DNA of 18,427 bases. Source: an uncultured Lachnospiraceae bacterium. GTDB lineage: Bacteria; Bacillota; Clostridia; Lachnospirales; Lachnospiraceae. Position 1 is the first letter of the stretch, and every line of letters starts with the position of its first letter. The DNA is taken from the NCBI GenBank assembly GCA_947068385.1, contig CAMTBF010000014.1, positions 1 to 18,427 of the forward strand, read 5' to 3'. The position numbers were made by a program, and so were the translations under genes. The notes beneath the pieces were generated by a model that saw only the letters and a program-made list of their open reading frames with translations, did not search any database and was not told the DNA's origin. Positions 120-18,014 of the stretch are shown here, in pieces.

Positions 120-151
120 AAAACCCTGCCACAGGGAGCGGCAGGGTTTTT
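120..151 (+). terminator. Terminator-like hairpin in the kinase leader
   Basis: An uninterrupted 11-bp stem (120-130 with 140-150) has a 9-nt loop. Its arms begin with AAAA and end with TTTT. It lies about 10 nt downstream of the predicted start of transcription and before the kinase start codon, so it could stop most transcripts at about 40 nt. Because the T-run is part of the stem and only one further T follows, it may work in both orientations, possibly also ending transcription that enters from the right. A G/C-rich stretch at 163-186 can form competing small stems (GGGAGG with CCTCCC; CCTCC with GGAGG). No anti-terminator is obvious. Confidence 0.55.
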
Positions 152-203
152 CTGTCCTGTGAGGGAGGGGGCCTCCCCCCGGAGGGCGGAACGGAGAGTG
201 CCT

Positions 204-2771: not shown

Positions 2772-2823
2772 ATATCCTGATATCAGGGAAAACTTGCGTA
2801 AAGCATGAATGGGAGGTGCGGCC

Positions 2824-4143
2824 ATGAAGAACAGGGGAAAGGGAATATCCGGAAAGCGGATCGCCGCCTGCCTGGCGGGCATCGCCGTTTTGGCGCTGAC
2901 AGCCTGCGGGGGGAAGGACGACCTGAACAACCTGATAAAAGCGGAAGATGAAGAGGAACACGTAGTCAATATGTTCAGCCCCATGGAGAAGACGGCTCCC
3001 GACGCGGAGAACGTGGCCAGGAGCGCTTCGGATCTGACGGTGGCCATGGCGGAGGAGGCGCTGGGGGTGACCGTGGCGTACAAGACCTATACGGCGGAGG
3101 ACCATCAGGACAAGACCTATGACGAGGTGGCCCTGGACAGGGCCCGCAACGATATGGACGATCTGTACCTGCTCAATCCGGATACGGTCCTGGCTTTGGG
3201 GGAGGAGGGGAAGCTGATGGACCTCTCGGGGCTGGACAGCGCCAAGAACCTGCGGGAGATCATCAGGACCGCCAACACGGTGGACGGGAAGCTGGTGGCC
3301 ATACCCCAGGAGGTGGTGGCCTACGGGCTGTTCGTCAACGTGGACATGTTCAGGCAGCATGGGCTGGAGCTGCCCCATACGCCGGAGGAGTTCCTGGAGT
3401 GCTGCAGGGTGTTCCGGGAGAACGGGGTCGAGACGCCCGTGGGGGCCAACCGCTGGTGGCTGGAGACCTTCGTCTTCGCCCAGGCCTACGCGGACCTCTA
3501 CAACGGCGGGGACACGGAGGCGGAGATCGCCGCCCTCAACAGCGGGGAGGCCAGATACAGCGACTATATGCGCCCGGGCTTCGAATTCCTGCAGGAGATG
3601 ATCGACCTGGGCTACATCGATGCCGGGAAGGCTCTGGTCAGCGAGGCCATAGAGGGGGAGGGCGCGGATTTCCTGGCCCAGAAGACCCCGATCGTCATGG
3701 CCTACTGGGGCGCGGCCAACACGGAGACGGCATACGGGAAGACGGATTTCGAGATGCAGGTCATCGGCTTCCCCAGCAGCAGGGGGCAGATGCCGGTGAT
3801 GCCCATGACAGGCTTCGGGGTGGGCGCCAATGCGGCCCATAGAGAGGACGCGGCGCGGGTGCTGGACATCATGGTGTCCGACGAGGCGCTGCGGGTCTAT
3901 TCGGAGACCAACCGGGTGATTTCGCCCTCCAAGAACGTGTCCGTGGAATGCGTCCCTGCGCTGAAGCCCCTGAACGACAGGATCGAGGAGGGAATCTATG
4001 TGCTGGGGTCCAACGCGGGGATGCAGGTGGAGCAGTGGGGGAACACCTGCCTCATCGTGCGCAGGCTGCTGGAGGGCGCTACGGTGGAGGAGTGCATGGC
4101 TGAGTTCGACCGGCTCCAGGAGGAGGCGCGGAACAGTCAATAA
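2824..4143 (+). CDS. Extracellular sugar-binding lipoprotein paired with the kinase
   Basis: This 439-residue protein resembles family 1 extracellular solute-binding proteins of sugar ABC importers (type II periplasmic-binding fold). The signal peptide has basic residues (KNRGK, SGKR), a hydrophobic core and the lipobox LTAC with Cys28, so the mature protein should be lipid-anchored outside the membrane. The ATG at 2824 follows GGGAGGTG (2811-2818). An in-frame ATG at 2809 is less likely because it would lie upstream of that site. The gene starts 52 bp after the kinase and no permease or ATPase is adjacent. It could therefore deliver ligand to the kinase sensor, as other binding proteins do for some kinases, or serve a distant transporter. 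The sensing role is inference and the ligand is unknown. Confidence 0.85.
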   Translation: MKNRGKGISGKRIAACLAGIAVLALTACGGKDDLNNLIKAEDEEEHVVNMFSPMEKTAPDAENVARSASDLTVAMAEEALGVTVAYKTYTAEDHQDKTYDEVALDRARNDMDDLYLLNPDTVLALGEEGKLMDLSGLDSAKNLREIIRTANTVDGKLVAIPQEVVAYGLFVNVDMFRQHGLELPHTPEEFLECCRVFRENGVETPVGANRWWLETFVFAQAYADLYNGGDTEAEIAALNSGEARYSDYMRPGFEFLQEMIDLGYIDAGKALVSEAIEGEGADFLAQKTPIVMAYWGAANTETAYGKTDFEMQVIGFPSSRGQMPVMPMTGFGVGANAAHREDAARVLDIMVSDEALRVYSETNRVISPSKNVSVECVPALKPLNDRIEEGIYVLGSNAGMQVEQWGNTCLIVRRLLEGATVEECMAEFDRLQEEARNSQ

Positions 4144-4180
4144 GAAAACGTAATAAAGTTTAAGCGAAAGCAATGGAAGA

Positions 4181-4222
4181 AAAGGCCGCCTGTGCGATGG
4201 ACATGAAGCACAGGCGGCCTTT
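4181..4222 (-). terminator. Terminator between the convergent SBP and GH127 genes
   Basis: A perfect 15-bp G/C-rich stem (4181-4195 with 4208-4222) has a 12-nt loop. On the minus strand the stem is followed by TTTTCTTCC, as expected for an intrinsic terminator of the GH127 gene, whose stop is 41 bp away. On the plus strand the stem ends CCTTTG with little T-run, so stopping the binding-protein transcript there is possible but weaker. Confidence 0.8.
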
Positions 4223-4262
4223 GCGCATGGCTGCGGAATCCCTGTTTTCCGGAGTTCCTTTT

Positions 4263-7200
4263 TTATGTCAGGCAGATCTGGAAATAAGTGTGATACGCCA
4301 CATTCTGGGCCGCGTAGGAGGGCACGAACTTCAGGTCGTCATACCACAGCACGGGCATCCCATCCTCCCAGTCGATGGCGAAGGCGTCCTCCGGCACCGG
4401 GGGGAGGTTCAGCCGGATCCAATCGGTGCTGCCGCTCAGGGCCGTCATCACCAGGGGCCCGTACATCACGCTGGCCGCCGGATATCCCTGGTAAGGGTCC
4501 TCCGTATAGCACAGGTGCAGCGAATAGGGCATCTCCACCGTGACCACGTCCCCGTCCCGGAAGCTCCTCTCCAGCAGATAATACCCGGCTCCCGGCTCCG
4601 CCGCGGGAAGCGCCTCCCCGTTGACCCGGATCCGGAAGGCCTCCCGGCACCAGTAGGGGATCCGTATCTTCAGCCGCAGAGGGGCTTGCCCCGGGACATG
4701 CACCCTCAGGCTGCAGGACTCACACGGGAAGGGACTGTCCATCTCCAGCCGCACGCCCTTTTCCTTCCAGTCATACATGGAGGGCAGGAACAGGTTCACG
4801 TACAGGGTGCCATCCTGGCCATGGTAGTAAATGTGCTCGGCATACCGTACATGGTTCTCCATGCCTGTGCCGTGGCAGCAGGTGAAGTCGTCATAGTCGT
4901 TGCCGTACTGCTTCCTGGCCCCCGGGCCGATGGGCAGCATGTAGGTCACCCCGTGGTGGGCGGATCTGCGCACCGTGGGGTTCTGGCTGGCGGCGATGTG
5001 GTTCGCCAGCGCCCGCTCGCAGTAATCCATGTATGCGCTGTGGTCCGGGGCGTACTGATAGAGCATCCCCGTGAGCTTTATCATGTTGTAGGTGGCGCAG
5101 GTCTCACAGTTCCTGTCGCCCTCGATGTTCTTCGCCAGCAGCCCCGGCTCCCTGAAGTTCTCCCCCCGGCCCACGCCGCCGATGGCGTACATATAGCGGT
5201 TCACCACCAGCTCCCAGAAGTTCCTGGCCAGATGATAATAATGAGGGTCGCCGGTGGCCCTGAACTCCTCCATGGCCCCGATGATCTGGGGGATGTGCTG
5301 GTTGGCATGGATGCCGGTGATGGCGTCCCTGCCGTGGGACAGCCCCTGGAACAGGGAGGCATTGTCGAACATCTTCGCCGTCTCCAGATAATCCGGGTTC
5401 CCCGTGATCTCATAGAGCCTGCCCATGGACTCGTTCATGCCGCCGTACTCCCCGGCGATGTACATCCGCCACATCTCCTCCCGCTGCTCCTTCGTGGTGG
5501 CGGAGAGCCTGGAGAAGACCCAGTCCCCGATGCCGCAGGCCACGGACAGGGCGTCGTCGCTGTGGAGCAGCAGATAGCAGTCGATCAGGCCCGCCAGGAT
5601 CTTGTGCAGGGTATAGTAGGGAGCCCATATGGTGGCATAGGGCGTGAACTGCTCCAGCAGGGCGAACTGGTCCGGGGAGTAGGCGCTCAGGAACCCCTTT
5701 CCCCAGGTGCCCGTGTCCTTGCTCCAGAGGGACTGCACCGCGTTGGCGGGGGAGCAGGCCGTCCGGAAGGCCGCGGGATCCCCCAGGGCCGTGTCCTGGA
5801 GCCTGCGCAGCTCCTCTATCATGTACGCCGCCTTCTCCCGGAAGCCCTCCTCCCCGGTGGAGGCATAGGCTGCGGCCAGGGCCGACAGGAAATGGCCCGT
5901 GGAATGGCCCCGCAGGAGCCCCGAGGGCTCCTCCCAGCCCCCCAGAGGCATGGCGTCCCCCGTGGATGCTCCAAAGGCTTTGCGGAAGTTGTAGAGCATC
6001 CTGTCCGCGTCCAGGAGCCGCAGATAGGCAAGGCAGCGCTGCTGGTTCTCATAGAAGACGCTCTCCCCTGTGAGCCGGACGCAGTCCCTGGGCGCGGGCG
6101 CTGCCTGGGCCCGGGGGGCCTGTCCTGTGGCGGCGCTGTCCGTTCCCCGCGGGGCCGCTGCCTGCCCCAGAGGGGCGGCGGGTATGTATTCCGTTCTGGG
6201 GAGGCTGCGGCAGGCGTCCGGAAGCATGCGGATCGGAAATGCCCGGCTTACGCTGGCCGCGCCATAGGTGGAGGTCAGGGTCAGCTCCAGCTCCACGGCT
6301 TCCCCCCGGGGCCTCTGCCCTATATGCCCGCAGGCGTCCATCAGCTCCGGACGGCTGCTCTCCCAGCGGAAGACGGAGCCGCCTTCGCCCTTCTCCGGCA
6401 GGGCCAGATCCGAGGCCACATGCCCGGGAAAGGGCAGCGCCACCCGGTCGGCGTCTGCCTGGGCGATTTCCGCATCCTGGGGCAGGGGCGGTACCTGGAA
6501 GCAGAATTCCTGCACCTGGCTCTGCCCCTGGAAGGTCAGCGTGGCCTGCAGCCTTCCCGTCAGCCCAGGGCGGCCCGGCGCAGGGCGCTCAAACCGTCCA
6601 TCGTCCGAGACGGCTTCCGGGGTCAGGCTCTTCCAGAGGATCTCCGCGCCCAGCTGTCCGCTTCCCGGCAGGACGGGGGGCTTTTCCAGCGGCCCGTCAA
6701 AAAGGGGAGCCAGGTTCTGAACCTCCAGGCGCAGCCTCTCCCGGGGCGCTATGTGGAACAAGGAGGCCATATCCGCCTCGTCCAGCACGCCCCCGAAGAT
6801 GCGCATGTCCGCAAGGCAGGCGTCCAGAGGGACCAGCGCAAAGGTGCCGAAGCCGAAATAATTGTCCGTTGCGCCCGCCAGCGCCCGGGCCTCCATGCGG
6901 CGGTGGGCCAGCTCCGCTTTCTTCTCGCCGTCGATGTAGAGCGCTATGGGAGCGGGGAGGCCGTTCCCGAAGGAGGCCGCTATGTGGAACCAGCGGCCCA
7001 GGGGAACCGGAACCCACTCCTGCAGGCAGGCCTCCTGGCTCCTGCCCCCGGCCGTGGCGCAGGGGGAGAGGAAGGCCTTCGATTCCTCCTCTTCCCCGGA
7101 CAGCACGGACAGATAGAAGCAGTTGTCCCTGCCGAAGGAAAAGAGATTGGTGTATTCCGTGACCGCGCCGATCCTGCAGTAGAAGCTGACGGTGACGCCC

Positions 7201-7457
7201 TCGGCGCCGTTCAGCACGCCGTCGGGCAGCTGCAGGTAGCCGCCCTGGGGGCCTCCGGTGAGGCGCAGCACCGGCAGCTCGCGCCCGAAGACGGTGTCCT
7301 GGCCCATGGCGGCCCCGCCCCTGTCGCATCCCCGGATGACGCCGGCATAGCCGTTCCCCGTCTGGTCGGGGACGATGGTGCTGCTGACCCCGGTGAAGTC
7401 ATAGCTGGCCAGAAGGGGGGCCGCCTGGGTGCCTGCGGCTTTCGTGATAGTGGACAT
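4263..7457 (-). CDS. GH127-type beta-L-arabinofuranosidase with LamG-like and Ig-like modules
   Basis: This 1064-residue protein carries a DUF1680/GH127 domain (about 460 to 970). Residues matching the characterised Bifidobacterium enzyme HypBA1 are visible: Glu766 in GENF (proposed acid/base), Glu785 and Cys787 in CETC, and Cys860-Cys861 in TCCHGTG. Together the last four would form the zinc-cysteine centre with a cysteine nucleophile. N-terminal parts are a LamG/concanavalin-like domain (about 15-230), an atrophied Ig-like region (about 250-415) and an Ala/Pro-rich linker (about 426-458). No signal peptide is visible, so it is probably cytoplasmic and acts on imported oligosaccharides. The ATG at 7457 has a strong AAGGAGGA site; an upstream in-frame extension lacks one and would begin inside the promoter. 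It is divergent from the LacI-transporter operon. GH146 or another DUF1680 subfamily cannot be excluded. Confidence 0.88.
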   Translation of the reverse strand: MSTITKAAGTQAAPLLASYDFTGVSSTIVPDQTGNGYAGVIRGCDRGGAAMGQDTVFGRELPVLRLTGGPQGGYLQLPDGVLNGAEGVTVSFYCRIGAVTEYTNLFSFGRDNCFYLSVLSGEEEESKAFLSPCATAGGRSQEACLQEWVPVPLGRWFHIAASFGNGLPAPIALYIDGEKKAELAHRRMEARALAGATDNYFGFGTFALVPLDACLADMRIFGGVLDEADMASLFHIAPRERLRLEVQNLAPLFDGPLEKPPVLPGSGQLGAEILWKSLTPEAVSDDGRFERPAPGRPGLTGRLQATLTFQGQSQVQEFCFQVPPLPQDAEIAQADADRVALPFPGHVASDLALPEKGEGGSVFRWESSRPELMDACGHIGQRPRGEAVELELTLTSTYGAASVSRAFPIRMLPDACRSLPRTEYIPAAPLGQAAAPRGTDSAATGQAPRAQAAPAPRDCVRLTGESVFYENQQRCLAYLRLLDADRMLYNFRKAFGASTGDAMPLGGWEEPSGLLRGHSTGHFLSALAAAYASTGEEGFREKAAYMIEELRRLQDTALGDPAAFRTACSPANAVQSLWSKDTGTWGKGFLSAYSPDQFALLEQFTPYATIWAPYYTLHKILAGLIDCYLLLHSDDALSVACGIGDWVFSRLSATTKEQREEMWRMYIAGEYGGMNESMGRLYEITGNPDYLETAKMFDNASLFQGLSHGRDAITGIHANQHIPQIIGAMEEFRATGDPHYYHLARNFWELVVNRYMYAIGGVGRGENFREPGLLAKNIEGDRNCETCATYNMIKLTGMLYQYAPDHSAYMDYCERALANHIAASQNPTVRRSAHHGVTYMLPIGPGARKQYGNDYDDFTCCHGTGMENHVRYAEHIYYHGQDGTLYVNLFLPSMYDWKEKGVRLEMDSPFPCESCSLRVHVPGQAPLRLKIRIPYWCREAFRIRVNGEALPAAEPGAGYYLLERSFRDGDVVTVEMPYSLHLCYTEDPYQGYPAASVMYGPLVMTALSGSTDWIRLNLPPVPEDAFAIDWEDGMPVLWYDDLKFVPSYAAQNVAYHTYFQICLT

Positions 7458-7529
7458 AAATCCTCCTTTCTGCCGGGGAGTCCGCGTCCGCCGGCCGGGG
7501 GCAGGCTCTGCCCCATGGTGCATGGAATT

Positions 7530-7559
7530 ATTATATGAATATGAAAAATATAAAATCAA
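7530..7559 (-). promoter_or_regulatory. Promoter of the GH127 gene
   Basis: On the minus strand, TTGATT (7559 to 7554) and TATAAT (7535 to 7530) are spaced by 18 bp in an AT-rich stretch. Transcription would begin near 7523, giving a leader of about 65 nt before the start codon at 7457. The upstream operator copy lies 20 bp beyond the -35. Confidence 0.7.
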
Positions 7560-7578
7560 TATAAAAAATGCACAAAAT

Positions 7579-7590
7579 TTAAACGATTAA
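7579..7590. promoter_or_regulatory. Probable LacI-family operator, copy 1
   Basis: TTAAACGATTAA is a near-palindrome (TTAAwCGwTTAA) with the central CG typical of LacI-family operators. It sits between the two divergent -35 boxes. The identical 12-mer recurs at 7777-7788. Assignment to the LacI protein encoded at 7845 rests on proximity and repetition. Confidence 0.65.
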
Positions 7591-7608
7591 CTTGTGAAAA
7601 ATGCGGAA

Positions 7609-7638
7609 TTGACAGGGGGACAAATCCGGCAGTATAAT
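7609..7638 (+). promoter_or_regulatory. Promoter of the LacI-ABC transporter operon
   Basis: A perfect TTGACA (7609-7614) and a perfect TATAAT (7633-7638) are spaced by 18 bp. Transcription should begin near 7645, leaving a leader of about 200 nt that contains operator copy 2. No other comparable promoter was seen before the binding-protein gene, so this one probably drives 7845 to 15485. Confidence 0.8.
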
Positions 7639-7644
7639 ATTTAG

Positions 7645-7844
7645 CAAGGAACCCAGAACCAAAAGCATGGAAAATACACCAGGATTAGTAAAAAAACTTG
7701 GCGAATTGGCGTATGGCCAGGATGCAGACTGTTGCCGGAGGAGAGCAGGACAGGGAATGGAACAGACAAAATGGGGTTAAACGATTAAACCCCTCTGACA
7801 GGATCCGGGCGTCAGGCCTGGATGAGGGAAAGAGAGGTGGCGGG
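7645..7844 (+). other. Long untranslated leader of the LacI operon
   Basis: About 200 nt separate the predicted transcription start from the ATG at 7845. The leader contains operator copy 2. That copy is flanked by GGGG and CCCC, so the RNA could form a 6-bp GGGGTT/AACCCC stem (7773-7778 with 7788-7793). A seven-codon reading frame (7757-7780) overlaps the operator but has only a weak ribosome site. No known riboswitch was recognised. Confidence 0.45.
7777..7788. promoter_or_regulatory. Probable LacI-family operator, copy 2
   Basis: This is an exact second copy of TTAAACGATTAA, centred 198 bp from copy 1 and about 130 bp downstream of the predicted transcription start. A roadblock or a DNA loop with copy 1 would explain such a placement. 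Confidence 0.65.
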
Positions 7845-8957
7845 ATGGCGACATTAAAGGATGTGGCGGAGCGCGCGGGAGTCTCTACGGCCACGGTCTC
7901 CTACGTGATGAACAATAAGGAGAACAAGGTCAGCGAGACCGTGGCGCAGAAGGTGCGCAGGGCGGCGCGGGAGCTGGGATACCAGCCCAACATAGCGGCC
8001 CGGGCGCTGCGGTCCAGCAGGAGCAACATCATCGGCATCGTCTCGGAGGACATCTCCACCTTTCAGGTCAACAACATCGTCCAGGGCATCAACCAGGCGG
8101 CGGACAGGGAGAACTACCAGATCCTCCTGGGGGACCTGAACCTGTGCGGGAAGATTTGGCATGACGGCAGGCAGGACTACAGCCTGACCATGAACTACCG
8201 CAAGGAGGTCAGGGACAAGATAGAGATCTTCCGGACGGTGGGCGCCTGCGGCATCATCTACGTGGGGATGCACGACCGGGACATCACCGGGCTGATCCGG
8301 ACGGACATGCCGCTGGTATATGCCTACAGCTATACCAAGAACCCCGGCGACTACATGGTGAACAATGACAACCAGCGGGTGGCCACCCAGGCCGTGGAGG
8401 CCATGCTGAGGCAGGGGCGCAAGAGGATAGGGCTGATCAGCGGCCCGGTGGAATCGGTTCCGGCCTACAAGCGCCTCATGGGCTACCAGACGGCGCTGAT
8501 GGAGGCCGGGGCGGCCATGGATCCGGCGCTGATTGAGTACGGCGACTGGAGCCCCTATTCCGGGGAGAAGGCCTGCCGCAGGCTGATGGCCCTGGAGGAG
8601 AGGCCGGACGCGCTCTTTTGCATGAACGACTGGATGGCGGTGGGGGCCATGAAGGTATTGAAGGAGATGGGGATAGCCATCGGGGAGGAGATCGTCCTCA
8701 TCGGCTTCGACGACATAGAGCTGTGCGATTACGTGGAGCCGGCGCTTACGTCCATCTCGATTCCCCTGGTGGAGATCGGGCGGCTGGCGGCGGAGAAGCT
8801 GATCAGGCTGACGGCGGGAGGGCAGGAATGCCGCCACAGGGAGGAGCTGCCCTGCCAGATCATAGGGCGGGAGACCTTCGTGTATGAAAGCGCCCCGGAG
8901 AAAGAGATTGGCAAGTCTGTCAAGACTGTTGATAAAACCGCGGAGATGTCCGCATGA
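7845..8957 (+). CDS. LacI/GalR-family transcription regulator
   Basis: This 370-residue protein has the LacI-family layout. A helix-turn-helix at residues 3-23 (LKDVAERAGVS, then TATVSYVMN) is followed by the hinge region (about 47-58, ARALRSSRS). From about residue 60 comes the sugar-binding effector domain, with the family signatures IGLISGP, CMNDWMA and IGFDDIE. The ATG at 7845 is preceded by AGAGG. The frame is open to 7698, but that extension has no ribosome site and would precede the conserved N-terminus. It starts the transporter operon, with the binding-protein gene 18 bp downstream, and faces the GH127 gene across two operator copies. It probably represses both units and itself until an arabinose-containing ligand binds; the ligand is inferred from the neighbours. 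Confidence 0.93.
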   Translation: MATLKDVAERAGVSTATVSYVMNNKENKVSETVAQKVRRAARELGYQPNIAARALRSSRSNIIGIVSEDISTFQVNNIVQGINQAADRENYQILLGDLNLCGKIWHDGRQDYSLTMNYRKEVRDKIEIFRTVGACGIIYVGMHDRDITGLIRTDMPLVYAYSYTKNPGDYMVNNDNQRVATQAVEAMLRQGRKRIGLISGPVESVPAYKRLMGYQTALMEAGAAMDPALIEYGDWSPYSGEKACRRLMALEERPDALFCMNDWMAVGAMKVLKEMGIAIGEEIVLIGFDDIELCDYVEPALTSISIPLVEIGRLAAEKLIRLTAGGQECRHREELPCQIIGRETFVYESAPEKEIGKSVKTVDKTAEMSA

Positions 8958-8975
8958 AATCAAGGAGGGAATAAA

Positions 8976-10793
8976 ATGAGGAAGAAAGTATTAGCGATGC
9001 TTCTGACCGGCGCCATGGCATTTTCCATGCTCACAGGCTGCGGCAGCGGCTCAGGGGGAGGCGGCAAAGAGCAGGACCTGTCTTCCGCCGACCTGAAGGG
9101 AGAGCCCAACGAGTGGGGCTGGGTAGTGCCTGAGGAGACCCTTGTCCTGGACGTATACGCCGGACAGGGCGACCAGCAGGAGCTGGAGGCCGACGAGAAG
9201 GGCGGCAAGGCCATCATGGACAAATGGCTGCTGGACAACCTGAACGTCCAGATCAACTTCCAGTACAGCAACATGGAGATGGACCAGCAGCTCCAATTGT
9301 GGCTTACCAGCGGCGACTATCCCGCCATCATCACCAACATGACCGACGACATGGCGGAGAAGTTCATCGCCCAGGGGAAGGCCCTTGACCTGACCGACGC
9401 CCTGGCCCAGTACGGCGACAACATCACCCGCCGCTACGGCAAGTACATGAACATGATGAAGAGCAGCGACGGCAAGGTCTACAAGCTGGCCACCCTCTAC
9501 GGCGACAACGTGAACGTGGCCGGAAGCGACTTCGGCATCCGCTACGACTACTGGAAGGAGCTGGGCGAGGACAAGATCTACGAGACCCCTGAGGAGTACT
9601 ATGAGGTGCTGAAAAAAGTCCTGGCCAACCATCCCACGGACGATAACGGCAACAAGGCATACGGCCTGTCCGCCACCGACAAGAAGGGCCAGAACCTCCT
9701 GAACTGCATGCTGGGCGCATACGGCTTCATCGGCGGCTACAAGTATGACGAGGGAAACGGAGAGATGACCCACTGGCTGAACACGGACGAGGGCCTGGAG
9801 ATGGCCAAGTTCATGAACAAGCTGTTCCGGGAGGAGATCATCGATCCTTCTTTCCTGAGCACCGATTACGAGAAGCTGATGACCGATATCCACAACGGCA
9901 CCATCGTGGGCAACTGCGACGCATGGTGGTACGGATGGACGGGGGGGCACCAGTACTGGGCTACCCAGGACGCTGAGAACTGGGAGCTGGAGAAGAGGAT
10001 CGCCAATGTCTCCGTCCATGCGGATGGCGTTGCCATGGAGGACACCACGCTGCTGACCTCCAGGTTCCTGGGAAGCTACCGCTGCATCGTCACCGACAAG
10101 TGCAAGGACTTAGGCATGGTCATGAGATACCTGAACTGGGAGAACAGCGAGCTGGGCAACTTCGTCATCGGCTGGGGCGCTCCCTCTGCGGACAACGTAT
10201 GGGACATCGCCAAGGAAGACACTAAAGTAGGCAACTGGGTGGACGGCCAGTGGGTGGAGGACTGCGTGGACATCAAGGCTGGCACCTGGCTCATGAAGGA
10301 CGTCATCCTGGACGTGGACAGGAAAGAGGAGATCGGCTCCTACCACGACCTGAAGGAGAAGAACGGCGCGGGCATCTACTCCATCGCCCTGAACGGCAAC
10401 TGGCTCTACACCAATGAGCTGCAGAACTTCGACCTGATCGATCCCCGTGTGTCCCACGTCTCCATCTACGACTACTGGCCGGTGAACCCGGACACGGGCG
10501 AATTCTCCAATGAGGGCGTGAAGCTCAGCTGGGGCTTCTACACCGCTCCCATGCAGGACACTTCCCTGTTCGCCGTGACCTGGGACGCTACCCAGGACAT
10601 CACTATCAAGAACGAGAACGTGAAGTCCAAGCTGGAGGAGGCATGGGCCAACATGATCACCGCCGAGTCCGAGGAGGAGTGCGAGAGAATCTTCTATGAG
10701 TCCAGGGAGACCTGTAACCAGCTGGGCCTGGAGGAGATCACGGAGTACGTGAAATCCCAGCACGACAGCAACGCGGAGAAGTACAACGGCTAA
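8976..10793 (+). CDS. Large solute-binding lipoprotein of an oligosaccharide ABC importer (YtcQ/LipO type)
   Basis: This 605-residue extracellular binding protein belongs, by size and neighbours, to the large YtcQ/LipO-like group that works with LplB/LplC-type permeases. The signal peptide ends in the lipobox LTGC with Cys22, followed by a Ser/Gly-rich tether, so it should be anchored to the outer face of the membrane. It should capture an oligosaccharide and hand it to the two permeases downstream. The ATG at 8976 has AGGAGGG at 8963-8969. Many aromatic residues in the body (for example WWYGWTGGHQYW, about 310-325) would suit sugar stacking. It is co-transcribed with the LacI gene. The 127-nt gap to the first permease holds two hairpins that could raise its expression over the permeases. 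Confidence 0.92.
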   Translation: MRKKVLAMLLTGAMAFSMLTGCGSGSGGGGKEQDLSSADLKGEPNEWGWVVPEETLVLDVYAGQGDQQELEADEKGGKAIMDKWLLDNLNVQINFQYSNMEMDQQLQLWLTSGDYPAIITNMTDDMAEKFIAQGKALDLTDALAQYGDNITRRYGKYMNMMKSSDGKVYKLATLYGDNVNVAGSDFGIRYDYWKELGEDKIYETPEEYYEVLKKVLANHPTDDNGNKAYGLSATDKKGQNLLNCMLGAYGFIGGYKYDEGNGEMTHWLNTDEGLEMAKFMNKLFREEIIDPSFLSTDYEKLMTDIHNGTIVGNCDAWWYGWTGGHQYWATQDAENWELEKRIANVSVHADGVAMEDTTLLTSRFLGSYRCIVTDKCKDLGMVMRYLNWENSELGNFVIGWGAPSADNVWDIAKEDTKVGNWVDGQWVEDCVDIKAGTWLMKDVILDVDRKEEIGSYHDLKEKNGAGIYSIALNGNWLYTNELQNFDLIDPRVSHVSIYDYWPVNPDTGEFSNEGVKLSWGFYTAPMQDTSLFAVTWDATQDITIKNENVKSKLEEAWANMITAESEEECERIFYESRETCNQLGLEEITEYVKSQHDSNAEKYNG

Positions 10794-10807
10794 TATACAG
10801 GAAGGCT

Positions 10808-10887
10808 TGTCTGCGGGCGATGCTTTGCGGCGGGGCCTGCGGACATTGGAAATGTCAATGGGGGGCGGCTTCGGCAACCTCCCATTG
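10808..10887 (+). other. Tandem mRNA hairpins between binding protein and permease
   Basis: The first hairpin pairs 10808-10817 with 10836-10845 (10 bp, two G-U). The second pairs 10856-10865 with 10878-10887 (10 bp, one G-U) and closes on a UUCG tetraloop at 10870-10873. Neither is followed by a T-run, so they are not classical terminators. They resemble the intercistronic structures of other sugar importers that protect the binding-protein mRNA from 3' decay and so keep that protein in excess. That role is inferred. Confidence 0.6.
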
Positions 10888-10920
10888 CGCTTCCGTGGAA
10901 TAAGGATTCAGGAGGGGTAG

Positions 10921-11859
10921 ATGAAAAGTAAAGAGAATAAAGCCAAAAAGAGGAAGGAGCTGATCAGGTCCTTCCGGACACAGAGGCAGATGTGGGCAAT
11001 CAGCGCAGTGGCCATTCTGTGGGCCATCATATTCTGCTATATCCCCATGCTGGGCAATGTCATTGCCTTTTTCGACTATACGCCGGGACAGAGCCTGGTG
11101 GACTGTAAATTCGTGGGCCTCAAGTACTGGATCGATTTCTTCCAGCTGCCGGACATGGGGCGGGTGTTCCGCAATACCCTGGTGATCAGCGGCCTGTCCA
11201 TGACCATCGGGTTCGTGGCGCCCATCATATTCGCGCTGCTGCTGAATGAGATCCATCACACGCTGTTCAAAAAGGTGGTGCAGACGATCTCCTATCTGCC
11301 GTACTTCATCTCCTGGGTGGTGGTGGCCAGCATCCTGTTCACGCTGCTTGGGACGGACGGCAACATCAACGAGCTTCTGCTGCACATGGGCGTGATTGAG
11401 AAGCCGATCGCGTTCCTGAACGAGAAGAGCTATTTCTGGGGGATTCTGACCACATCCAATATCTGGAAGGACGTGGGATGGTCTGCCATCATCTATATTT
11501 CCGCCATCGCGGGCGTGGACGGCACGCTGTATGAGGCGGGGTCCGTGGACGGGCTGGGGCGGTTCGGCAAGGCCTGGCACATCACCTTGCCCGGCATCGC
11601 GCCTACGGTGATCATGCTGTTCATCATGGGCATCGGAGGCATCCTGAACGCCGGCTTCGAGCAGCAGCTGCTGATCGGTAATCCGCTGACCCAGGAAGTG
11701 TACGAGAATATCGATACATACGTGTACCGCTACGGCATGCAGCTGGGGAGATATTCCTTCGCTACATCCATCGGCCTGATGAAGTCGATCTTCGGCTTTA
11801 TCCTGGTGCTGATTTCCAATAAGATTTCGGCGAAAGTCACCGATATGAGACTGTTCTGA
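10921..11859 (+). CDS. Sugar ABC transporter permease, LplB/YteP type
   Basis: This 312-residue integral membrane protein is the first of two permease subunits. About six hydrophobic segments are visible, beginning at about 25-50. The cytoplasmic loop that contacts the ATPase is present at about 205-227 (YEAGSVDGLGRFGKAW, then LPGIAP). The start (PMLGNVIAFFDY, KYWIDFF) and the ending (LVLISNKIS) resemble the LplB family of polysaccharide importers. The ATG at 10921 follows AGGAGGGG. Its stop is 16 bp before the second permease start, so the two are surely co-translated. No ATPase gene lies in the window, which is common in this family, where one MsmX/MsmK-like ATPase serves several importers. 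Confidence 0.93.
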   Translation: MKSKENKAKKRKELIRSFRTQRQMWAISAVAILWAIIFCYIPMLGNVIAFFDYTPGQSLVDCKFVGLKYWIDFFQLPDMGRVFRNTLVISGLSMTIGFVAPIIFALLLNEIHHTLFKKVVQTISYLPYFISWVVVASILFTLLGTDGNINELLLHMGVIEKPIAFLNEKSYFWGILTTSNIWKDVGWSAIIYISAIAGVDGTLYEAGSVDGLGRFGKAWHITLPGIAPTVIMLFIMGIGGILNAGFEQQLLIGNPLTQEVYENIDTYVYRYGMQLGRYSFATSIGLMKSIFGFILVLISNKISAKVTDMRLF

Positions 11860-11875
11860 GACGGGGGTGAGCAGA

Positions 11876-12778
11876 GTGAAGAAAAAAGGCACAAAAATCA
11901 AAACAAGTTTGGGATCCAAGATATTCGATGTCTTCAATGTATGCTTTATGCTGGTGTTCGCGTTCGTGATGATCTATCCCTTCTGGAATCAGCTGGTGAT
12001 CTCCTTCAACGAAGGGTCGGACACGGTGAAGGGCGGGCTGACGTTCCTGCCCAGGGCGTTCACGTTGGAGAACTATTCCTACATCTTCACCCGGACGAAT
12101 ATCTGGAAGGGCGCGATCATCTCCGTGCTGCGGGCCGTGGTGGGCACCACCCTGACCATTATGTGCACGGGGCTTCTGGGCTATATCACCACCATCCAGC
12201 ATTTCGTGGGCAAGCGCTTCGTGCGCCTGGTGTTCATCATCACCATGTACTTCGGCGGCGGGCTGATCCCCACGTTCCTGCTGTACTCCAACCTGGGGCT
12301 GCTGGACACCTTCACGGTGTACTGGCTGCCGGCCCTGTTCAGCGCGTATTTCATGATGCTGATGGCATCCTTCATCCAGGGGCTGCCTGATTCCCTGGCG
12401 GAGAGCGCCAGGCTGGACGGCGCCAACGAGCTGACGATCTATTTCCGGGTGATACTGCCCCTGTGCACGCCGGTCATAGCGGCCACGGCCATCATGACGG
12501 CGGTAGGGCACTGGAACTCCTGGTTCGATGTCATGATCTACAACTCCGGCGGGAACTGGGACACGCTGCAGGTGTACCTGCGCAAGATCCTGATGGAGAG
12601 CGAGCAGGCCTCCAAGCTCTTGAGCGAGCAGAAGCAGTTCGAGGCCATGCGGAACCTGACCACGTCCTCCGTGCGGGCCGCCACCACCATGGTGGTGACG
12701 ATACCGATTGTGTGTATCTATCCGTTCTTCCAGAAGTATTTCGTGGGCGGCATCACCATCGGAGCGGTGAAGGGCTAA
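11876..12778 (+). CDS. Sugar ABC transporter permease, LplC/YtcP type
   Basis: This 300-residue second permease has about six hydrophobic segments and the ATPase-contact loop at about 176-200 (ESARLDGANEL, then LPLCTPV). The ending, with EQKQFEAMRNL, PFFQKYFVGG and ITIGAVKG, is characteristic of LplC/YtcP proteins. The start is taken as GTG 11876, 5 nt after GGGGGTGA (11863-11870), which matches the anti-Shine-Dalgarno sequence well. The in-frame GTG at 11867 lies inside that site. With the binding protein and LplB-like subunit it forms the importer. The 890-residue protein gene follows 34 bp after its stop. Confidence 0.93.
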   Translation: MKKKGTKIKTSLGSKIFDVFNVCFMLVFAFVMIYPFWNQLVISFNEGSDTVKGGLTFLPRAFTLENYSYIFTRTNIWKGAIISVLRAVVGTTLTIMCTGLLGYITTIQHFVGKRFVRLVFIITMYFGGGLIPTFLLYSNLGLLDTFTVYWLPALFSAYFMMLMASFIQGLPDSLAESARLDGANELTIYFRVILPLCTPVIAATAIMTAVGHWNSWFDVMIYNSGGNWDTLQVYLRKILMESEQASKLLSEQKQFEAMRNLTTSSVRAATTMVVTIPIVCIYPFFQKYFVGGITIGAVKG

Positions 12779-12812
12779 GAAGGGAAAAATAAGCAAGAAG
12801 CAAGAGGGAATC

Positions 12813-15485
12813 ATGGGAGAGAAGTATTATTTCTGCAACAGCCGGTTCAAGGCGCAGGTTCAGGACGGGATGCTCCGTTCGGTGTCTATGATGGGGGATG
12901 GTGAAAACATCCCCTATCTCAATGAGGAAAAAGGGTATGGGAACCTCTATCTGGCCTGGGAGAGCGCCGGGGAGAGGCGGCAGTGGCGGCCTTTCGAGGA
13001 CGAGGGATTTAAGGATGACAAGCCTGTAGTGCGCGGGCGCTCTGTCAGGTATGAGGGGAGCGTCCGGGGGGAGGAGCTGAAGGTCACGGTGCGCTTCTGC
13101 CTGGGAGAGGTGATGGAGCAGGAGATCCTGGTGAAGAACGTATGTTCTGGACCGGTGCGGCTCCTGGACTTCGGCCTGCGGCTGGCCTGCCATACGAAGT
13201 TCGCCTGGGGCGGCGACGCGGGGCGGGAGGTGATCGGACATCATTTCATCTCCGGCCACGGCTCCCATTCCACGCTGTACCGCTGTGACGGCAGGGGGAG
13301 CCTGCTGGCCGTGCTCCCCTGGGGGGACAGCCAGTGGGTGCACTATGAGGAGGAGGTTCCGGAGCCCATTCCCGGACGGGACGGGACGGACGGCAAGGGG
13401 ATGGTGATCCTCTACAGCTTAAGCGGCGGGGTCGGCGCGAAGCGGAAGGAAGAGGGCGCGAGGCTGCGGATTGAGCCGACGAGCGTCCTGCTGGAGCCCG
13501 GGGAGAGCTATCGCTACCGGGGGAGGATTCTGTTCGCCGGGGATTATGAGGACTGCCGGAGCCGTCTGGTGGAGCAGGGGCAGGTGATGGCGGAGAGCAT
13601 CCCGGGGTATACGGTCCCCAGGGAGCAGCCGGTGCTGCTGGCGCTGCGCTGGGACGGGGAGGCGTGCCAGGCGGAAGGCCTGCGGGTGGAAGGAGAGGAC
13701 ACCGAGGTGGAGGCCCTGGGGACGAACGGGGCATACCACATCTTCCGTCTCAGCTTCCGGCGGCTGGGCGAGCGCACGGTCCGGGTGCTTTACGGCGGGA
13801 AGTATATGCATTTATATTATTTCGTCACACAGGACGTGCGGACCATGCTGGGGAAGCGGGCGGCTTTCATTGCGGGCAAGCAGATTAAGGACGGGGAGAA
13901 ATGGTACAACGGGCTGTTTTCTGAGTACAACAACGAGACGGGGGCGGTGCTGAGCCCGGACAATTATGACAGGATCGGGGGGTGGCGGATCTACGAGGTG
14001 ACCTGCGACGATCCGGGGCTGTCCAAGCCGGCGTTCCTCTCTACGGCCCAGACGGTGTGCCCTGTCCAGGCTCAGGTGGACGCGCTGGACGATTATATCG
14101 AGCATTTCGTCTGGGGCGGGCTGCAGCAGACAGAGGATGAGCCTTTCCCTTATGGCATCTATGGGATTCCGGACTGGCATGTGCTGCGGGGATCGGAGGA
14201 TCCGGGGAACGGCGGGCGGACGCATCTTTGGCGGGTGTATGATTATCCGCACATTGCGCTGATGTATTTTAATATGTATCAGGTGGCGGCTTTTGCGGAA
14301 GGGATTGCTACGAGGCTGCCTGCGAAGGAGTATCTGCGACGGGCCTACGGCACGGCCAGGGCGATGTTCACGGTTCCGGCGGAGCTGGAGGGATGGTCGG
14401 CTTATGAGACGGGGTTCTACAATGAGCTGGCGATTCCGGAGATCGTGGGGGCTCTGCGGCGGGAAGGGATGGAGCTGGAGGCCCAGGTGCTGGAGGGGCA
14501 CTGGAACCGGAAGATGGGGTATTTCGTGAAGGAGTGCAAGGATGTGTTCGGGTCGGAGTATCCTTTTGACACTACGGGGTTCGAGAGCACTCATGTGCTG
14601 GCGGCCAGGGGGCTGGAGATGGCTGAGATGCGCTGCAGGAAGCTGCCTTATGGGGAGGATATGGATTATGGCAGGGCTGTGGAGTTCATGGAGAATCAGA
14701 CGGCCTGCAATGTGGCGTGCAGGGGGGTGCTGGAGCCTGCTTATTTCTGGTATGGCAGTGATTACCGGGGGGATAACCTGCATTATACGCTGAGTTATAT
14801 GACGCAGATGGGCGGGGAGTCGCTGTTGGATTATGCCTGTTATTATGCGCTGGAGCCTTTTAGGATGCTACGGCTGGCTTATGGGTCGCTTTTGGGGAGC
14901 TGGGCGCTGCTGAACTGCGGGGATGCGGAGAGCGATTACGGTTATTGGTTCCCTGGGAAGGAGAAGGACGGGTGTGCCAGCGGGGGGTTTGAGCCGCTGT
15001 ATGGCGGGGAGACTTGGCTGAACCAGCCTCATCATGGCGGGGCTTGGTATTATTCCTGTGAGATTGATCTGGGGTTCTGTGGGGGGCTGCGGGGGGCTGC
15101 TACGGTGGTGGCGGAGGATCCGGTCTTCGGCAGGGTCTGCTATGGCGGCTCCCTGGAGGAGGTTCCTGAGGGGCTGCGGGTTCGGTGCCGGGACGGCGTG
15201 GGGCGGCGGTTCCATTATATCGGGGGTCGGGGGCGCTTCCATGCGGTTTGTGAGCATGGGGAGTGGGCTTTGGCGGACGGGGTTCTCTTGAAGGGGGACT
15301 GCGGGTGTATTGAGCTGAAGGCGGAGTCAGGGGCTTGGAAGAAAGAGGCGCTGTCGGTTCGGGTGATGGTTGAAGGGTTTGGAGATTACCGGCTGGCTGG
15401 GACGGATACTATCCTGCGGGATGGGGAGTGGTGTGAGCTGCCTTTGCCGGAGGGGGAGGCTAGGTTTCGGTTGGAGCGGGTTTAG
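12813..15485 (+). CDS. Putative glycosidase or carbohydrate-active protein of an uncharacterised family (DUF5695-like)
   Basis: This 890-residue protein has no visible signal peptide or membrane segment and should be cytoplasmic. By memory it resembles proteins labelled DUF5695; I am not certain. Residues about 1-340 look beta-rich, like the sandwich domains preceding catalytic toroids. About 350-760 is helix-rich with many Trp, Tyr and acidic residues (WYNGLFSEYNNETG at 364-377, GGWRIYE at 389-395, HLWRVYDYPH at 471-480, AYETGFYNELA at 530-540), as in alpha/alpha-barrel glycosidases. The C-terminus again looks beta-rich. The ATG at 12813 follows AGAGGGA. It is the last gene of the LacI-transporter operon, so it probably acts on the imported sugar, perhaps with GH127. 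Codon use changes sharply near codon 475, from C-ending to T-ending. No catalytic pair can be named. Confidence 0.72.
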   Translation: MGEKYYFCNSRFKAQVQDGMLRSVSMMGDGENIPYLNEEKGYGNLYLAWESAGERRQWRPFEDEGFKDDKPVVRGRSVRYEGSVRGEELKVTVRFCLGEVMEQEILVKNVCSGPVRLLDFGLRLACHTKFAWGGDAGREVIGHHFISGHGSHSTLYRCDGRGSLLAVLPWGDSQWVHYEEEVPEPIPGRDGTDGKGMVILYSLSGGVGAKRKEEGARLRIEPTSVLLEPGESYRYRGRILFAGDYEDCRSRLVEQGQVMAESIPGYTVPREQPVLLALRWDGEACQAEGLRVEGEDTEVEALGTNGAYHIFRLSFRRLGERTVRVLYGGKYMHLYYFVTQDVRTMLGKRAAFIAGKQIKDGEKWYNGLFSEYNNETGAVLSPDNYDRIGGWRIYEVTCDDPGLSKPAFLSTAQTVCPVQAQVDALDDYIEHFVWGGLQQTEDEPFPYGIYGIPDWHVLRGSEDPGNGGRTHLWRVYDYPHIALMYFNMYQVAAFAEGIATRLPAKEYLRRAYGTARAMFTVPAELEGWSAYETGFYNELAIPEIVGALRREGMELEAQVLEGHWNRKMGYFVKECKDVFGSEYPFDTTGFESTHVLAARGLEMAEMRCRKLPYGEDMDYGRAVEFMENQTACNVACRGVLEPAYFWYGSDYRGDNLHYTLSYMTQMGGESLLDYACYYALEPFRMLRLAYGSLLGSWALLNCGDAESDYGYWFPGKEKDGCASGGFEPLYGGETWLNQPHHGGAWYYSCEIDLGFCGGLRGAATVVAEDPVFGRVCYGGSLEEVPEGLRVRCRDGVGRRFHYIGGRGRFHAVCEHGEWALADGVLLKGDCGCIELKAESGAWKKEALSVRVMVEGFGDYRLAGTDTILRDGEWCELPLPEGEARFRLERV

Positions 15486-15637: not shown

Positions 15638-15702
15638 TGTTTTGCGGCAGGGCTGTAGGTTTTTAGTGACGAACGAAAATGCGGAAGTGAGGGTGTGTTG
15701 AG

Positions 15703-16944
15703 ATGAAAAAGGAATTTTATCGGGGAAATAGAAATAGGGTTTATGCGGAGATGGAGCCGAATTCTTTGTTGGTTATGTTTTCGGGGGTGGAGGTTCGGAA
15801 GACCAATGATGAGTTTTATCCGTTTTATGCGGATCGGAATTTTTTGTATTTGACGGGGTTGGATTGTAAGGAGGCTGTGCTGCTGGCTTGGAAGGATTCG
15901 GAGGGGTGCACGGGGGAGAGGGTTTATGTTTTGCCGCCGGATTTTTTGAAGGAGCGTTGGACGGGGGTCAGGGTTAAGCCTCAGGAGGCTTCGGAGCTGT
16001 CGGGGATTGGGGATGTGGCTTTTGTGGGGGAGTTTGAGGCGGATTTCCATAGGATGGCTTCGCTGGGGAATTATGGAAATCTGTATCTGGATACGTATCG
16101 GACGGAGCCGGGGGACAGGGAGACGCAGGCGCATGGGCTATGCAGGCGGGCGGCGGTGGATTATCCTTATCTGCGGATCCGGAATGCAAATGGGATTTTG
16201 AGGAGGCTGCGGACTATTAAGCAGCCTTGTGAGATAGAGGCTATCCGGGAGGCTGAGAAGATTACCAGGGATGGGATTGTGGCTATGATGCGGGCTTCGA
16301 AGCCGGGGATGTATGAGTATCAGTATAAGGCTGTGTTCGATCATGCGCTGGGGCAGCATGGGCCTCAGGGGGCAGCGTTTCCTTCTATTATTTCCGCGGG
16401 GAGGAATAATTTCTGTATTCATTATTATGCTTATAGGGGGCAGGCTCAGGACGGGGATATGATTTTGAACGATGTGGGGGCTTGGTATGACAATCTGATG
16501 ACGGATGTGTCCAGGGGATGGCCCTGCAACGGGAGGTATAGTGAGAGGCAGAGGTTGTTGTATGGATGTGCGCTGGATACGTCTGATCATATGTTTTCTG
16601 TCATTAAACCGGGGATGGCCATGGAGGATGTGGACAGGGAGGCCAGGCGGTATAATGCGGGGCTGTTGAAGGACGTGGGCGTGCTGAAGGATGTGGAGGA
16701 TATCGGGACTTATATGTGGCATGGGGGCTCTCATCATGTGGGGTATGACGTGCATGATGTGGTGGAGCGGCCGCAGTTCATCGCTCCTGGGATGGTGTTC
16801 TGTGTGGATATCGGGATTTATCATGAGGAGTGGGGGATCGGGTTTCGGCTGGAGGACAATTGTCTGGTGACAGAGGATGGGTGCGAGAATCTTTCGGTTA
16901 TCACGCCCAGGACCATAGAGGAGATTGAGGGGATCATGGGATAG
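15703..16944 (+). CDS. M24-family metallopeptidase (Xaa-Pro aminopeptidase-like)
   Basis: This 413-residue cytoplasmic protein has the two-domain layout of aminopeptidase P. An N-terminal domain ends near 165 (FYADRNFLYLTGL at 41-53) and a pita-bread catalytic domain follows. Metal ligands align as Asp257, Asp268, His344 (in HGGSHHVGYDVHD) and Glu384. The remaining ligand, Glu in the usual EPG motif, is Asp369 here (CVDIGIY). His340 and His351 match the other conserved histidines. The ATG at 15703 follows GTGAGGG at a rather long spacing. It should cleave peptides before or after proline, but the Glu-to-Asp change may alter metal binding or activity. The gene is very poor in C and prefers T at third positions. 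It lies beyond the big palindrome, so it may be transcribed separately; no clear promoter was seen. Confidence 0.9.
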   Translation: MKKEFYRGNRNRVYAEMEPNSLLVMFSGVEVRKTNDEFYPFYADRNFLYLTGLDCKEAVLLAWKDSEGCTGERVYVLPPDFLKERWTGVRVKPQEASELSGIGDVAFVGEFEADFHRMASLGNYGNLYLDTYRTEPGDRETQAHGLCRRAAVDYPYLRIRNANGILRRLRTIKQPCEIEAIREAEKITRDGIVAMMRASKPGMYEYQYKAVFDHALGQHGPQGAAFPSIISAGRNNFCIHYYAYRGQAQDGDMILNDVGAWYDNLMTDVSRGWPCNGRYSERQRLLYGCALDTSDHMFSVIKPGMAMEDVDREARRYNAGLLKDVGVLKDVEDIGTYMWHGGSHHVGYDVHDVVERPQFIAPGMVFCVDIGIYHEEWGIGFRLEDNCLVTEDGCENLSVITPRTIEEIEGIMG

Positions 16945-17130: not shown

Positions 17131-17144
17131 AGGAGGCTTTGGTT

Positions 17145-18014
17145 ATGAATGGTGATTTGCGGATGCATTGGTCGGTGCGGTCGGTTGTGGCTATTTTGCT
17201 GGGGAATGTTCTGTATGCGCTGACGGTGAAGGTGTTCCTGCTTCCGGCGAACCTGGTCAGCGGAGGGGCCACGGGCATTGCGCTGGCGGCGAACCATCTG
17301 ACAGGGGTGTCGGTTTCGGGCTTTCTGTTTTTGGTGAACGTGAGCATGCTGATATTGGGGCTGATCGTGCTGGGGAGGGCTTTCGTGGCCACGACGCTGG
17401 CCAGCACTTTCCTGATTCCGGCGGCGCTGGAGGTGTTCGAGCGGCTGTTGGGGGATTTCGTGCTGACGGATGACATTCTGCTTTGCACTTTGTTCGCGGG
17501 GCTGGGCGTGGGGGTGTCCCTGGGGATTGTGATCCGCACGGGGGCTTCCACGGGGGGCATGGACATTCCGCCGCTGATTTTGTACAAATGTTTCCGGGTG
17601 CCGGTGTCGGTGAGTCTGTATGCTTTTGATGTGTGCATCCTGCTGCTCCAGGCGCCGTTCCAGAAGGCGGATAATATCCTGTATGGCATTGTGTTCGTGC
17701 TGTTGTCGGCCATCGCGCTGGACAAGACTATGATGATCGGAACGACGCAGACGGAGGTGAAGATCATGAGCGGCAAGTCGGAGGAGATTAGGGACGCTAT
17801 CCTGAAGCAGCTGGACAGGGGGGTGACGCTGCTGAACGCGGAGGGCGGGTATCTGCATGACAAGAGCCCGATGATATTCAGCGTCATCTCCAACAGGGAG
17901 CTGTTCAAGCTGGAGAAGCTCGTCCATGGCATAGATCCGGCCAGCTTCATGGTGGTCACCAGGGTCAGCGAGGTGAAGGGACGGGGATTTTCCATGGACA
18001 AAAATGCGTTGTAA
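17145..18014 (+). CDS. YitT-family integral membrane protein
   Basis: This 289-residue protein has an N-terminal membrane region of about five to six segments and a soluble C-terminal domain (about 200-285) of the DUF2179 type. Family-typical glycine motifs are SGGATG (about 41-46) and STGGMDI (about 142-148). The function of YitT proteins is not firmly known. The ATG at 17145 has AGGAGG 8 nt upstream; a TTG at 17139 would be too close to that site. The leader is repeat copy 2, so its translation could be affected by that structure. Codon use moves back toward C-ending codons in the last 300 bp. A link to the sugar module is not evident. Confidence 0.9.
   Translation: MNGDLRMHWSVRSVVAILLGNVLYALTVKVFLLPANLVSGGATGIALAANHLTGVSVSGFLFLVNVSMLILGLIVLGRAFVATTLASTFLIPAALEVFERLLGDFVLTDDILLCTLFAGLGVGVSLGIVIRTGASTGGMDIPPLILYKCFRVPVSVSLYAFDVCILLLQAPFQKADNILYGIVFVLLSAIALDKTMMIGTTQTEVKIMSGKSEEIRDAILKQLDRGVTLLNAEGGYLHDKSPMIFSVISNRELFKLEKLVHGIDPASFMVVTRVSEVKGRGFSMDKNAL

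Follow-up and report, generated by a model that had tools for sequence, protein, structure and literature searches.

Which glycan is served by a locus that sets a predicted beta-L-arabinofuranosidase, a LacI-family regulator, components of an ATP-binding cassette (ABC) importer and an 890-residue protein of the DUF5695 family around one control region, and what does the DUF5695 protein do there? The locus lies in a stretch of 18,427 nucleotides (the window) from an uncultured Lachnospiraceae bacterium (GenBank assembly GCA_947068385.1, contig CAMTBF010000014.1). We think it probable, with considerable room for doubt, that the module provides locally regulated import and intracellular breakdown of arabinose chains on hydroxyproline, i.e. 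those of extensin-type hydroxyproline-rich glycoproteins of the plant cell wall or their glycopeptides, with DUF5695 in the role of glycoside hydrolase family 121 (GH121). The assignment to this pathway is well supported; the reaction of DUF5695 we only infer. An earlier note on this DNA had seen here a separate variant of the pathway for hydroxyproline beta-L-arabinosides, in which an uncharacterised protein is the partner enzyme, and that proposal gains support from the enrichment of particular gene families around DUF5695 genes.

To describe these neighbourhoods, 145 DUF5695 relatives were confirmed in a genome scan, the best 80 loci were taken (cited by their L numbers), and their open reading frames (ORFs) were grouped into clusters, whose profiles then served to score them. 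Of the 80 loci, 36 contain GH127/GH146 genes and 20 contain M24 peptidase genes, with either present in 40 and both in 16; among the 28 Firmicutes loci, GH127/146 is found in 20 and M24 in 13. Enrichment was calculated for 49 of the 80 loci, near-duplicate Bradyrhizobium and Nitrospirillum loci, several short contigs and some others having been left out by choice, and expected counts were derived from the genome-wide numbers of each family. In these 49 loci GH127/146 was observed 33 times against 1.13 expected, M24 20 times against 0.97, and the Pro_racemase family (proline racemase/hydroxyproline epimerase) eight times against 0.15. The search for GH127 beside the 890-residue family that the earlier note had suggested thus returned a clear association. 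The pairing of GH127/146 with DUF5695 spans Clostridia, Paenibacillaceae, sphingomonads, Acidobacteriota, Verrucomicrobia and Planctomycetes, and in nine clostridial loci (L011-L013, L016-L020 and L027) the gene after DUF5695 is a GH127 gene whose cluster representative matches HypBA1-type structures. A PF07944 gene is present somewhere in 48 of the 49 genomes and in 77 of 150 genomes of the host's family, a comparison that is indicative only, the 49 being drawn from many phyla.

The genes alongside also point to hydroxyproline. At L026, from Paenibacillus alkalitolerans, the genes immediately upstream of DUF5695 encode an FAD amino-acid oxidase, two Pro_racemase-family proteins, a DapA-like protein and a protein resembling alpha-ketoglutaric semialdehyde dehydrogenase, a layout that we take to be that of the known trans-4-hydroxyproline pathway; none of the cassette's proteins scored above a curated cut-off. 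Four sphingomonads (L042, L047, L062 and L084) share the order GH146, an unassigned gene, DUF885, GH43, DUF5695, M24, FAD oxidase, DapA-like and Pro_racemase family, and the GH43 enzyme of L042 is closest to arabinofuranosidase/xylosidase structures (E 4.4e-51). In L044 and L060 (Gemmatimonadota) and L046 (Akkermansiaceae), the genomic matches to the Pro_racemase family and to DUF5695 are 177-330 bp apart. The M24 peptidases near DUF5695 belong to two subfamilies in different lineages, with AMP_N in the window and L076 and Creatinase_N in L015, L040, L047 and L084, a sign that a proline peptidase may have been recruited more than once. Together, M24 (20 of 49 loci), the Pro_racemase family (8 of 49) and the catabolism-type cassettes at L026 and in the four sphingomonads strengthen the hydroxyproline part of the earlier proposal. 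The window's own M24 gene, omitted from the earlier note, makes the module larger than was then seen and probably belongs to it; it may share the common transcript, with a weak terminator-like site in between at 15641-15659.

Two described systems offer a comparison. The beta-arabino-oligosaccharide locus of Bifidobacterium longum (BauR, BauABC, HypBA1, HypBA2 and HypAA) resembles the window in joining a LacI regulator, an ABC importer and a PF07944-clan enzyme (PMC7263609; PMC5928203). In contrast to that locus, the window has DUF5695 at the place of the GH121 arabinobiosidase, GH146 instead of GH127 and a proline peptidase gene after them, and whereas HypBA2 and HypAA are extracellular, the window enzymes have no visible signal peptide. 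For the breakdown of Ara4-Hyp, Xanthomonas uses a GH43 enzyme to take off the alpha-1,3 arabinose, GH121 to set arabinobiose free and XeHypBA1 to detach the final arabinose from hydroxyproline (PMC6085000), XeHypBA1 being now classed in GH146 (PMC10850190). The set of Xanthomonas euvesicatoria, XeHypAA (GH43), XeHypBA2 (GH121) and XeHypBA1 (GH146), is like the sphingomonad loci in placing GH43 and GH146 around one further enzyme, but in the sphingomonads that enzyme is DUF5695, with hydroxyproline-catabolism-type genes alongside; Pfam found no GH43 in the window. Because the sphingomonads have GH43 and GH146 with DUF5695 at the place of GH121, and because in nine clostridial loci a GH127 of the HypBA1 type, which splits arabinobiose, follows DUF5695, we propose DUF5695 for the arabinobiosidase-type step.

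The arabinofuranosidase of the window had been called GH127 in the earlier note. Its place in the PF07944 clan (GH-P) stands, but on its sequence the enzyme belongs to GH146, with beta-L-arabinofuranosidase activity predicted; the GH127 label was rejected, as GH146 structures and residues fit better. Its best solved match is 5opj (E 1.2e-83), followed by 8k7y (2.9e-43) and 8k7x (6.4e-43), while 4qjy, 3wre, 3wkw and 7exu gave E 3.6e-11 to 7e-10 (the last three 2.9e-10 to 7e-10). We take 5opj to be GH146 BT0349, 8k7x and 8k7y to be GH146 Bll3HypBA1, and 3wre, 3wkw and 7exu to be GH127 HypBA1, which fits the molecule names and construct lengths. The enzyme shares with BT0349 and Bll3HypBA1 the zinc site, the acid/base and the main substrate-site residues: the Cys3-Glu site E785, C787, C860 and C861 aligns with E723, C725, C804 and C805 of Bll3HypBA1 (numbering from PMC10850190), the acid/base Glu aligned to E694 is kept, and so are the counterparts of W429, E578 and N630. 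Unlike in those two enzymes, its catalytic domain is preceded by aBig and LamG domains and no signal peptide is visible (the domain order is Laminin_G_3, aBig_2, then GH127 catalytic and middle domains), and the counterpart of T631 is Gln. The characterised GH146 enzymes XeHypBA1 and Bll4HypBA1 cleave arabinose directly from hydroxyproline, i.e. the bond Araf-beta-Hyp (PMC10850190; PMC6085000, where XeHypBA1 is still GH127). The better start of the gene is the ATG at 7457, preceded by an AGGAGG site. An open frame of 1121 residues antisense to this gene (4173-7538, plus strand) looks, from its codon-position G+C, like a shadow frame of this high-G+C gene. Two HypBA1-like GH127 genes are found elsewhere in the host's draft genome (3.78 Mb, 89.5% complete; the window has 60% G+C).

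All the parts named in the earlier note are present where it had placed them (Table 1). The divergent control region (7458-7844) has the GH146 gene on one side and lacI, the binding protein, two permeases and DUF5695 on the other, the gaps between the plus-strand genes being 18, 127, 7 and 34 bp in that order. The promoter-like sites listed are among seven found in a 9.9 kb region, where shuffled sequence gave 4.2. When the genome was searched for exact copies of the operator-like pattern TTAAWCGWTTAA, there were two only, both in the control region, and none of the reversed control pattern, with 0.14 expected by chance from base composition (60% G+C assumed). Among 11 related loci, the motif occurs without mismatch in the divergent regions of L007, L008, L009 and L010, TTAAAGGTTTAA is present instead in the control regions of L011, L012, L013 and L017, and there is no match with one mismatch or fewer in L014, L016 and L048. 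This pattern in the genome and the related loci supports one local LacI switch of both arms; a wider LacI regulon was rejected, no third exact operator being present in the genome (mismatched sites were not searched). From these motifs, a control region common to both arms, as had been proposed for the GH127-clan enzyme, LacI, importer and 890-residue protein, is a well-supported prediction, with divergent promoter-like sites and two 12-mers exclusive to it in the genome.

Table 1. Features of the module and its control region in the window
Feature	Position	Strand	Basis
Predicted GH146-type beta-L-arabinofuranosidase, 1064 aa	4263..7457	-	Pfam PF07944, E 3.7e-92; no signal peptide by eye
Promoter-like site of the GH146 gene, TTGATT-18-TATAAT	7530..7559	-	Consensus scan (sigma-70-type), 10/12 bases
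Operator-like 12-mer TTAAACGATTAA, between both divergent promoter-like sites	7579..7590	.	Motif comparison
Promoter-like site of the lacI operon, TTGACA-18-TATAAT	7609..7638	+	Consensus scan (sigma-70-type), 12/12 bases
Second operator-like 12-mer TTAAACGATTAA, in the lacI leader, core of the 20-base dyad GGGGTTAAACGATTAAACCC	7777..7788	.	Motif comparison
LacI-family regulator, 370 aa	7845..8957	+	PF00356, PF13377
Extracellular solute-binding protein, 605 aa, lipoprotein-like	8976..10793	+	Lipobox-like LTGC read by eye
ABC permease 1	10921..11859	+	PF00528 (BPD_transp_1)
ABC permease 2	11867..12778	+	PF00528 (BPD_transp_1)
DUF5695 protein, 890 aa, putative intracellular enzyme on hydroxyproline-linked beta-arabinosides	12813..15485	+	No signal peptide by eye
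M24 Xaa-Pro aminopeptidase-type protein (AMP_N + Peptidase_M24)	15703..16944	+	Pfam domains

The 890-residue protein itself matches DUF5695 (PF18951) with 120.2 bits, against a Pfam gathering score of 25.2. Its structure model consists of a beta-sandwich domain followed by an (alpha/alpha)6 domain, which on structure comparison is the fold of polysaccharide lyase family PL27; the one good solved match of the model is a PL27 L-rhamnose-alpha-1,4-D-glucuronate lyase, and PL27 entries are its only close solved relatives. Plain PL27 membership was rejected on sequence, where similarity is below the level of clear members: phmmer against the PL27 structure 5no8 (BACCELL_00875) gave E 0.0012 for the window protein, but 1.4e-114 and 1.1e-116 for two proteins from the host's bacterial family, L091 and L092. 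The window protein differs from the PL27 lyases in its 18% identity, its longer C-terminal part and its gene company. In a profile alignment to PL27 some motif residues are kept and others changed, the invariant E489 and the majority H488 (L092 numbering) aligning with T587 and D586. Four acidic residues of the window protein, E591, E641, E750 and D752, are invariant and would be candidates for catalysis. Foldseek found weak similarity to GH121 6m5a (E 0.012, TM 0.24), and GH121 does not appear among the VIA rows listed, which is no sign of its absence. The nearest named relatives are from Lachnospiraceae (L010, 92% identity; P0002, 89% over 68% of the query), and 1131 relatives at E 0.001 or better were found among 7997 candidates scored. 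In the host's family DUF5695 is rare: matches occur in six of 299 genomes, counting the host, and two of the weak ones are to proteins of PL27 type. In the literature searched, the only paper to mention DUF5695 does so incidentally, when it tabulates domains of fungal proteins.

Relatives elsewhere vary in form. Genomes of the host's family also encode proteins that are clearly of PL27 type, L091 (562-2400) and L092 (535-2472); out of 7988 candidates, 926 are related to these at E 0.001 or better, some of them from lactobacilli and bacilli and one (P0209) labelled as phage. Two other genomes of the family encode very large, secreted-looking DUF5695 proteins of 1945 and 2660 residues (L099, 7400-13237; L100, 7344-15326) with LamG, Ig-like and leucine-rich domains, the former preceded by a LacI gene. 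Several Gram-negative DUF5695 proteins carry twin-arginine-like leaders (e.g. L042, L049, L076, L080 and L084), and several genomes with this type have a second, distant DUF5695 gene. In L027 (9785-13132) the DUF5695 frame continues into a GH127-profile match (96 bits), possibly a fusion or a frameshift. A GH31 enzyme is encoded downstream of the DUF5695-GH127 pair in L016 (14818-16821) and L020 (14718-16727), and our guess is an alpha-galactosidase for the serine-linked galactose of extensin.

On this evidence the locus is likely a hydroxyproline-arabinoside import and breakdown operon in a gut clostridium, and we envisage it working as follows. Computation established the gene order, control motifs, families, fold, GH146 catalytic residues and enrichment of neighbours; the substrate, its import, the sequence of steps, their place in the cell and above all what DUF5695 catalyses are our reading of these. 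The LacI repressor would hold both divergent promoters through the TTAAACGATTAA sites, and the glycoside or glycopeptide would be imported by the binding protein and both permeases together with an ATPase whose gene lies elsewhere. DUF5695, built like PL27 but taken here as a hydrolase, would cut the beta-1,2-arabinosyl chain in place of the GH121 beta-L-arabinobiosidase HypBA2, GH146 would take off the last arabinose bound to hydroxyproline, the GH127 enzymes encoded elsewhere in the genome would split beta-arabinobiose, and the M24 peptidase would open Xaa-(hydroxy)proline bonds. Breakdown would follow import, since inspection by eye shows no signal peptide in the window GH146, DUF5695 and M24 proteins; a periplasmic site would fit the Gram-negative members, given their twin-arginine-like leaders. 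Chances are about even that DUF5695 is more generally a new enzyme family, a PL27-like scaffold turned to hydrolysis and deglycosylating hydroxyproline, which replaces GH121 in a pathway of many phyla that imports or exposes the hydroxyproline glycopeptides of plants, strips arabinose, opens the peptide and burns hydroxyproline.

The relation to PL27 allows another substrate. The target of the module could be the glycans of arabinogalactan-protein (AGP) instead of extensin-type arabinosides, with DUF5695 as a PL27-related lyase or hydrolase removing a capping sugar and GH146 removing terminal beta-1,3-arabinose as Bll3HypBA1 does, which we judge unlikely but consider a serious competitor. The close solved relatives of DUF5695 are PL27 enzymes only, and these release rhamnose from gum arabic (PMC8377490); Bll3HypBA1, whose substrate is Araf-beta-1,3-Araf in AGP, has LamG modules (PMC10850190), of which the window enzyme has one; and AGPs contain hydroxyproline too, so that peptidase and Pro_racemase genes would also fit. 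Of the 78 non-Firmicutes neighbours scanned, 4 belong to GH43, a family that includes AGP exo-galactanases as well (PMC10850190), but the sphingomonad GH43 resembles arabinofuranosidase/xylosidase entries, with none named galactanase among its 21 solved matches, and the set of GH43, DUF5695 and GH146 fits the extensin-type pathway of Xanthomonas. The neighbour scans covered 87 of 113 listed ORFs from Firmicutes and 78 of 173 from other phyla, with the 25 commonest families shown for each, so rarer AGP enzymes are not excluded by them.

With the extensin-type substrate unchanged, DUF5695 might instead act directly on the bond between sugar and hydroxyproline, or on the alpha-1,3 cap, leaving the beta-1,2 work to GH146/GH127. 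The short distance from DUF5695 to Pro_racemase in L044, L046 and L060 looks as if DUF5695 frees hydroxyproline; yet cleavage of Ara-Hyp is already an activity of known GH146 enzymes (PMC6085000; PMC10850190) and GH43 supplies a likely alpha-1,3 step in sphingomonads, and we regard this division of labour as rather improbable. Very improbable, in our estimation, is a module for pectic arabinan or rhamnogalacturonan oligosaccharides with terminal beta-L-arabinofuranose, in which the peptidase is a chance neighbour: the closest solved GH146 relative, taken as BT0349, does belong to a rhamnogalacturonan-I locus (PMC10850190), but M24 (20 of 49 loci against 0.97) and the Pro_racemase family (8 of 49 against 0.15) would be left unexplained.

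Several observations weigh against import and breakdown of hydroxyproline arabinosides with DUF5695 in the place of GH121. The only solved DUF5695 relative is a lyase on AGP side chains, so AGP is a live alternative substrate, and though Pfam and NCBIfam recognised no GH121 in the window, no GH121 model was searched. In the stretch available (some are short), 44 of the 80 loci have no GH127/146, among them 15 of 17 Bradyrhizobium and five of five Nitrospirillum loci, and M24 is absent from all 22 of these two genera; the Bradyrhizobium genome of L050 has neither a PF07944 nor a PF05544 gene. The earlier note had named, as the pattern that would undo its reading, a family mostly in the company of unrelated sugar systems; with 36 loci carrying GH127/146 this is not what was found, though for the other 44 it is not fully excluded. 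GH127/146 is present in three of the 31 loci left out of the enrichment sample (L010, L014 and L065) and M24 in none, so the choice of 49 raises the observed fraction, not enough to erase the enrichment, and the P values are too small because the loci are phylogenetically related. Clusters of GH127, M24 and Pro_racemase genes also occur without DUF5695, which then lies on another contig (G329 contig 1, about 2575112-2581128, and G328 contig 127, about 12375-35815, hold such clusters), and part of the neighbourhood signal is therefore a substrate theme rather than DUF5695; this type of hydroxyproline-glycan locus may exist both with and without DUF5695. The first Pro_racemase protein of L026 has proline racemase as its best model and 4-hydroxyproline epimerase as its second, at 358.3 of the 376 bits needed. 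Finally, in the host genome, at 89.5% completeness, no hydroxyproline dehydratase scored above cut-off in the three glycyl-radical proteins scanned out of four.

One of these three, L101, was rejected as trans-4-hydroxy-L-proline dehydratase: it reaches 528.8 bits where the cut-off is 1100, and two other models of the superfamily score higher. The remaining two had no match to the dehydratase model; next to the fourth, L102, is an ORF that by eye resembles a ribonucleotide-reductase activating enzyme. The solute-binding protein of the module matched no Pfam or NCBIfam family, and its sole solved relative is weak and distant (9pmy, E 2.5e-11); a homologue lies near DUF5695 in 23 of 81 loci, the window counted. 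The permeases are presumably of LplB type (permease 1) and LplC type (permease 2). Elsewhere in the window, a hybrid histidine kinase with two receiver-domain stretches and, after it, a second solute-binding protein (117-4143, plus strand) apparently form a separate upstream unit, and a YitT/DUF2179 membrane protein (17139-18014, plus strand) is encoded downstream of the M24 gene, with no link to the module seen. No RNA family, tRNA or tandem repeat of relevance to the module came up in the scans for them.

What is new here, and supported in its main line, is a variant pathway in a clostridium, of an otherwise known type but with DUF5695 as the proposed partner enzyme. Beyond the bifidobacterial and Xanthomonas systems, the literature on hydroxyproline glycan breakdown, as far as its available parts extend, yielded neither DUF5695 nor a second arabinobiosidase family for these glycans. 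Several bifidobacterial strains lack hypBA2 while having the rest of the system, and the authors speculate about other unidentified enzymes (PMC5928203); DUF5695 is a concrete candidate for such a step in other bacteria. Hydroxyproline-rich glycoproteins are a source of both protein and sugar in plant food, and the DUF5695 neighbourhood connects sugar removal with proline peptidases and hydroxyproline catabolism. If an assay succeeds, it would give a function to the family of 1131 relatives, and DUF5695 may then merit a new glycosidase family.

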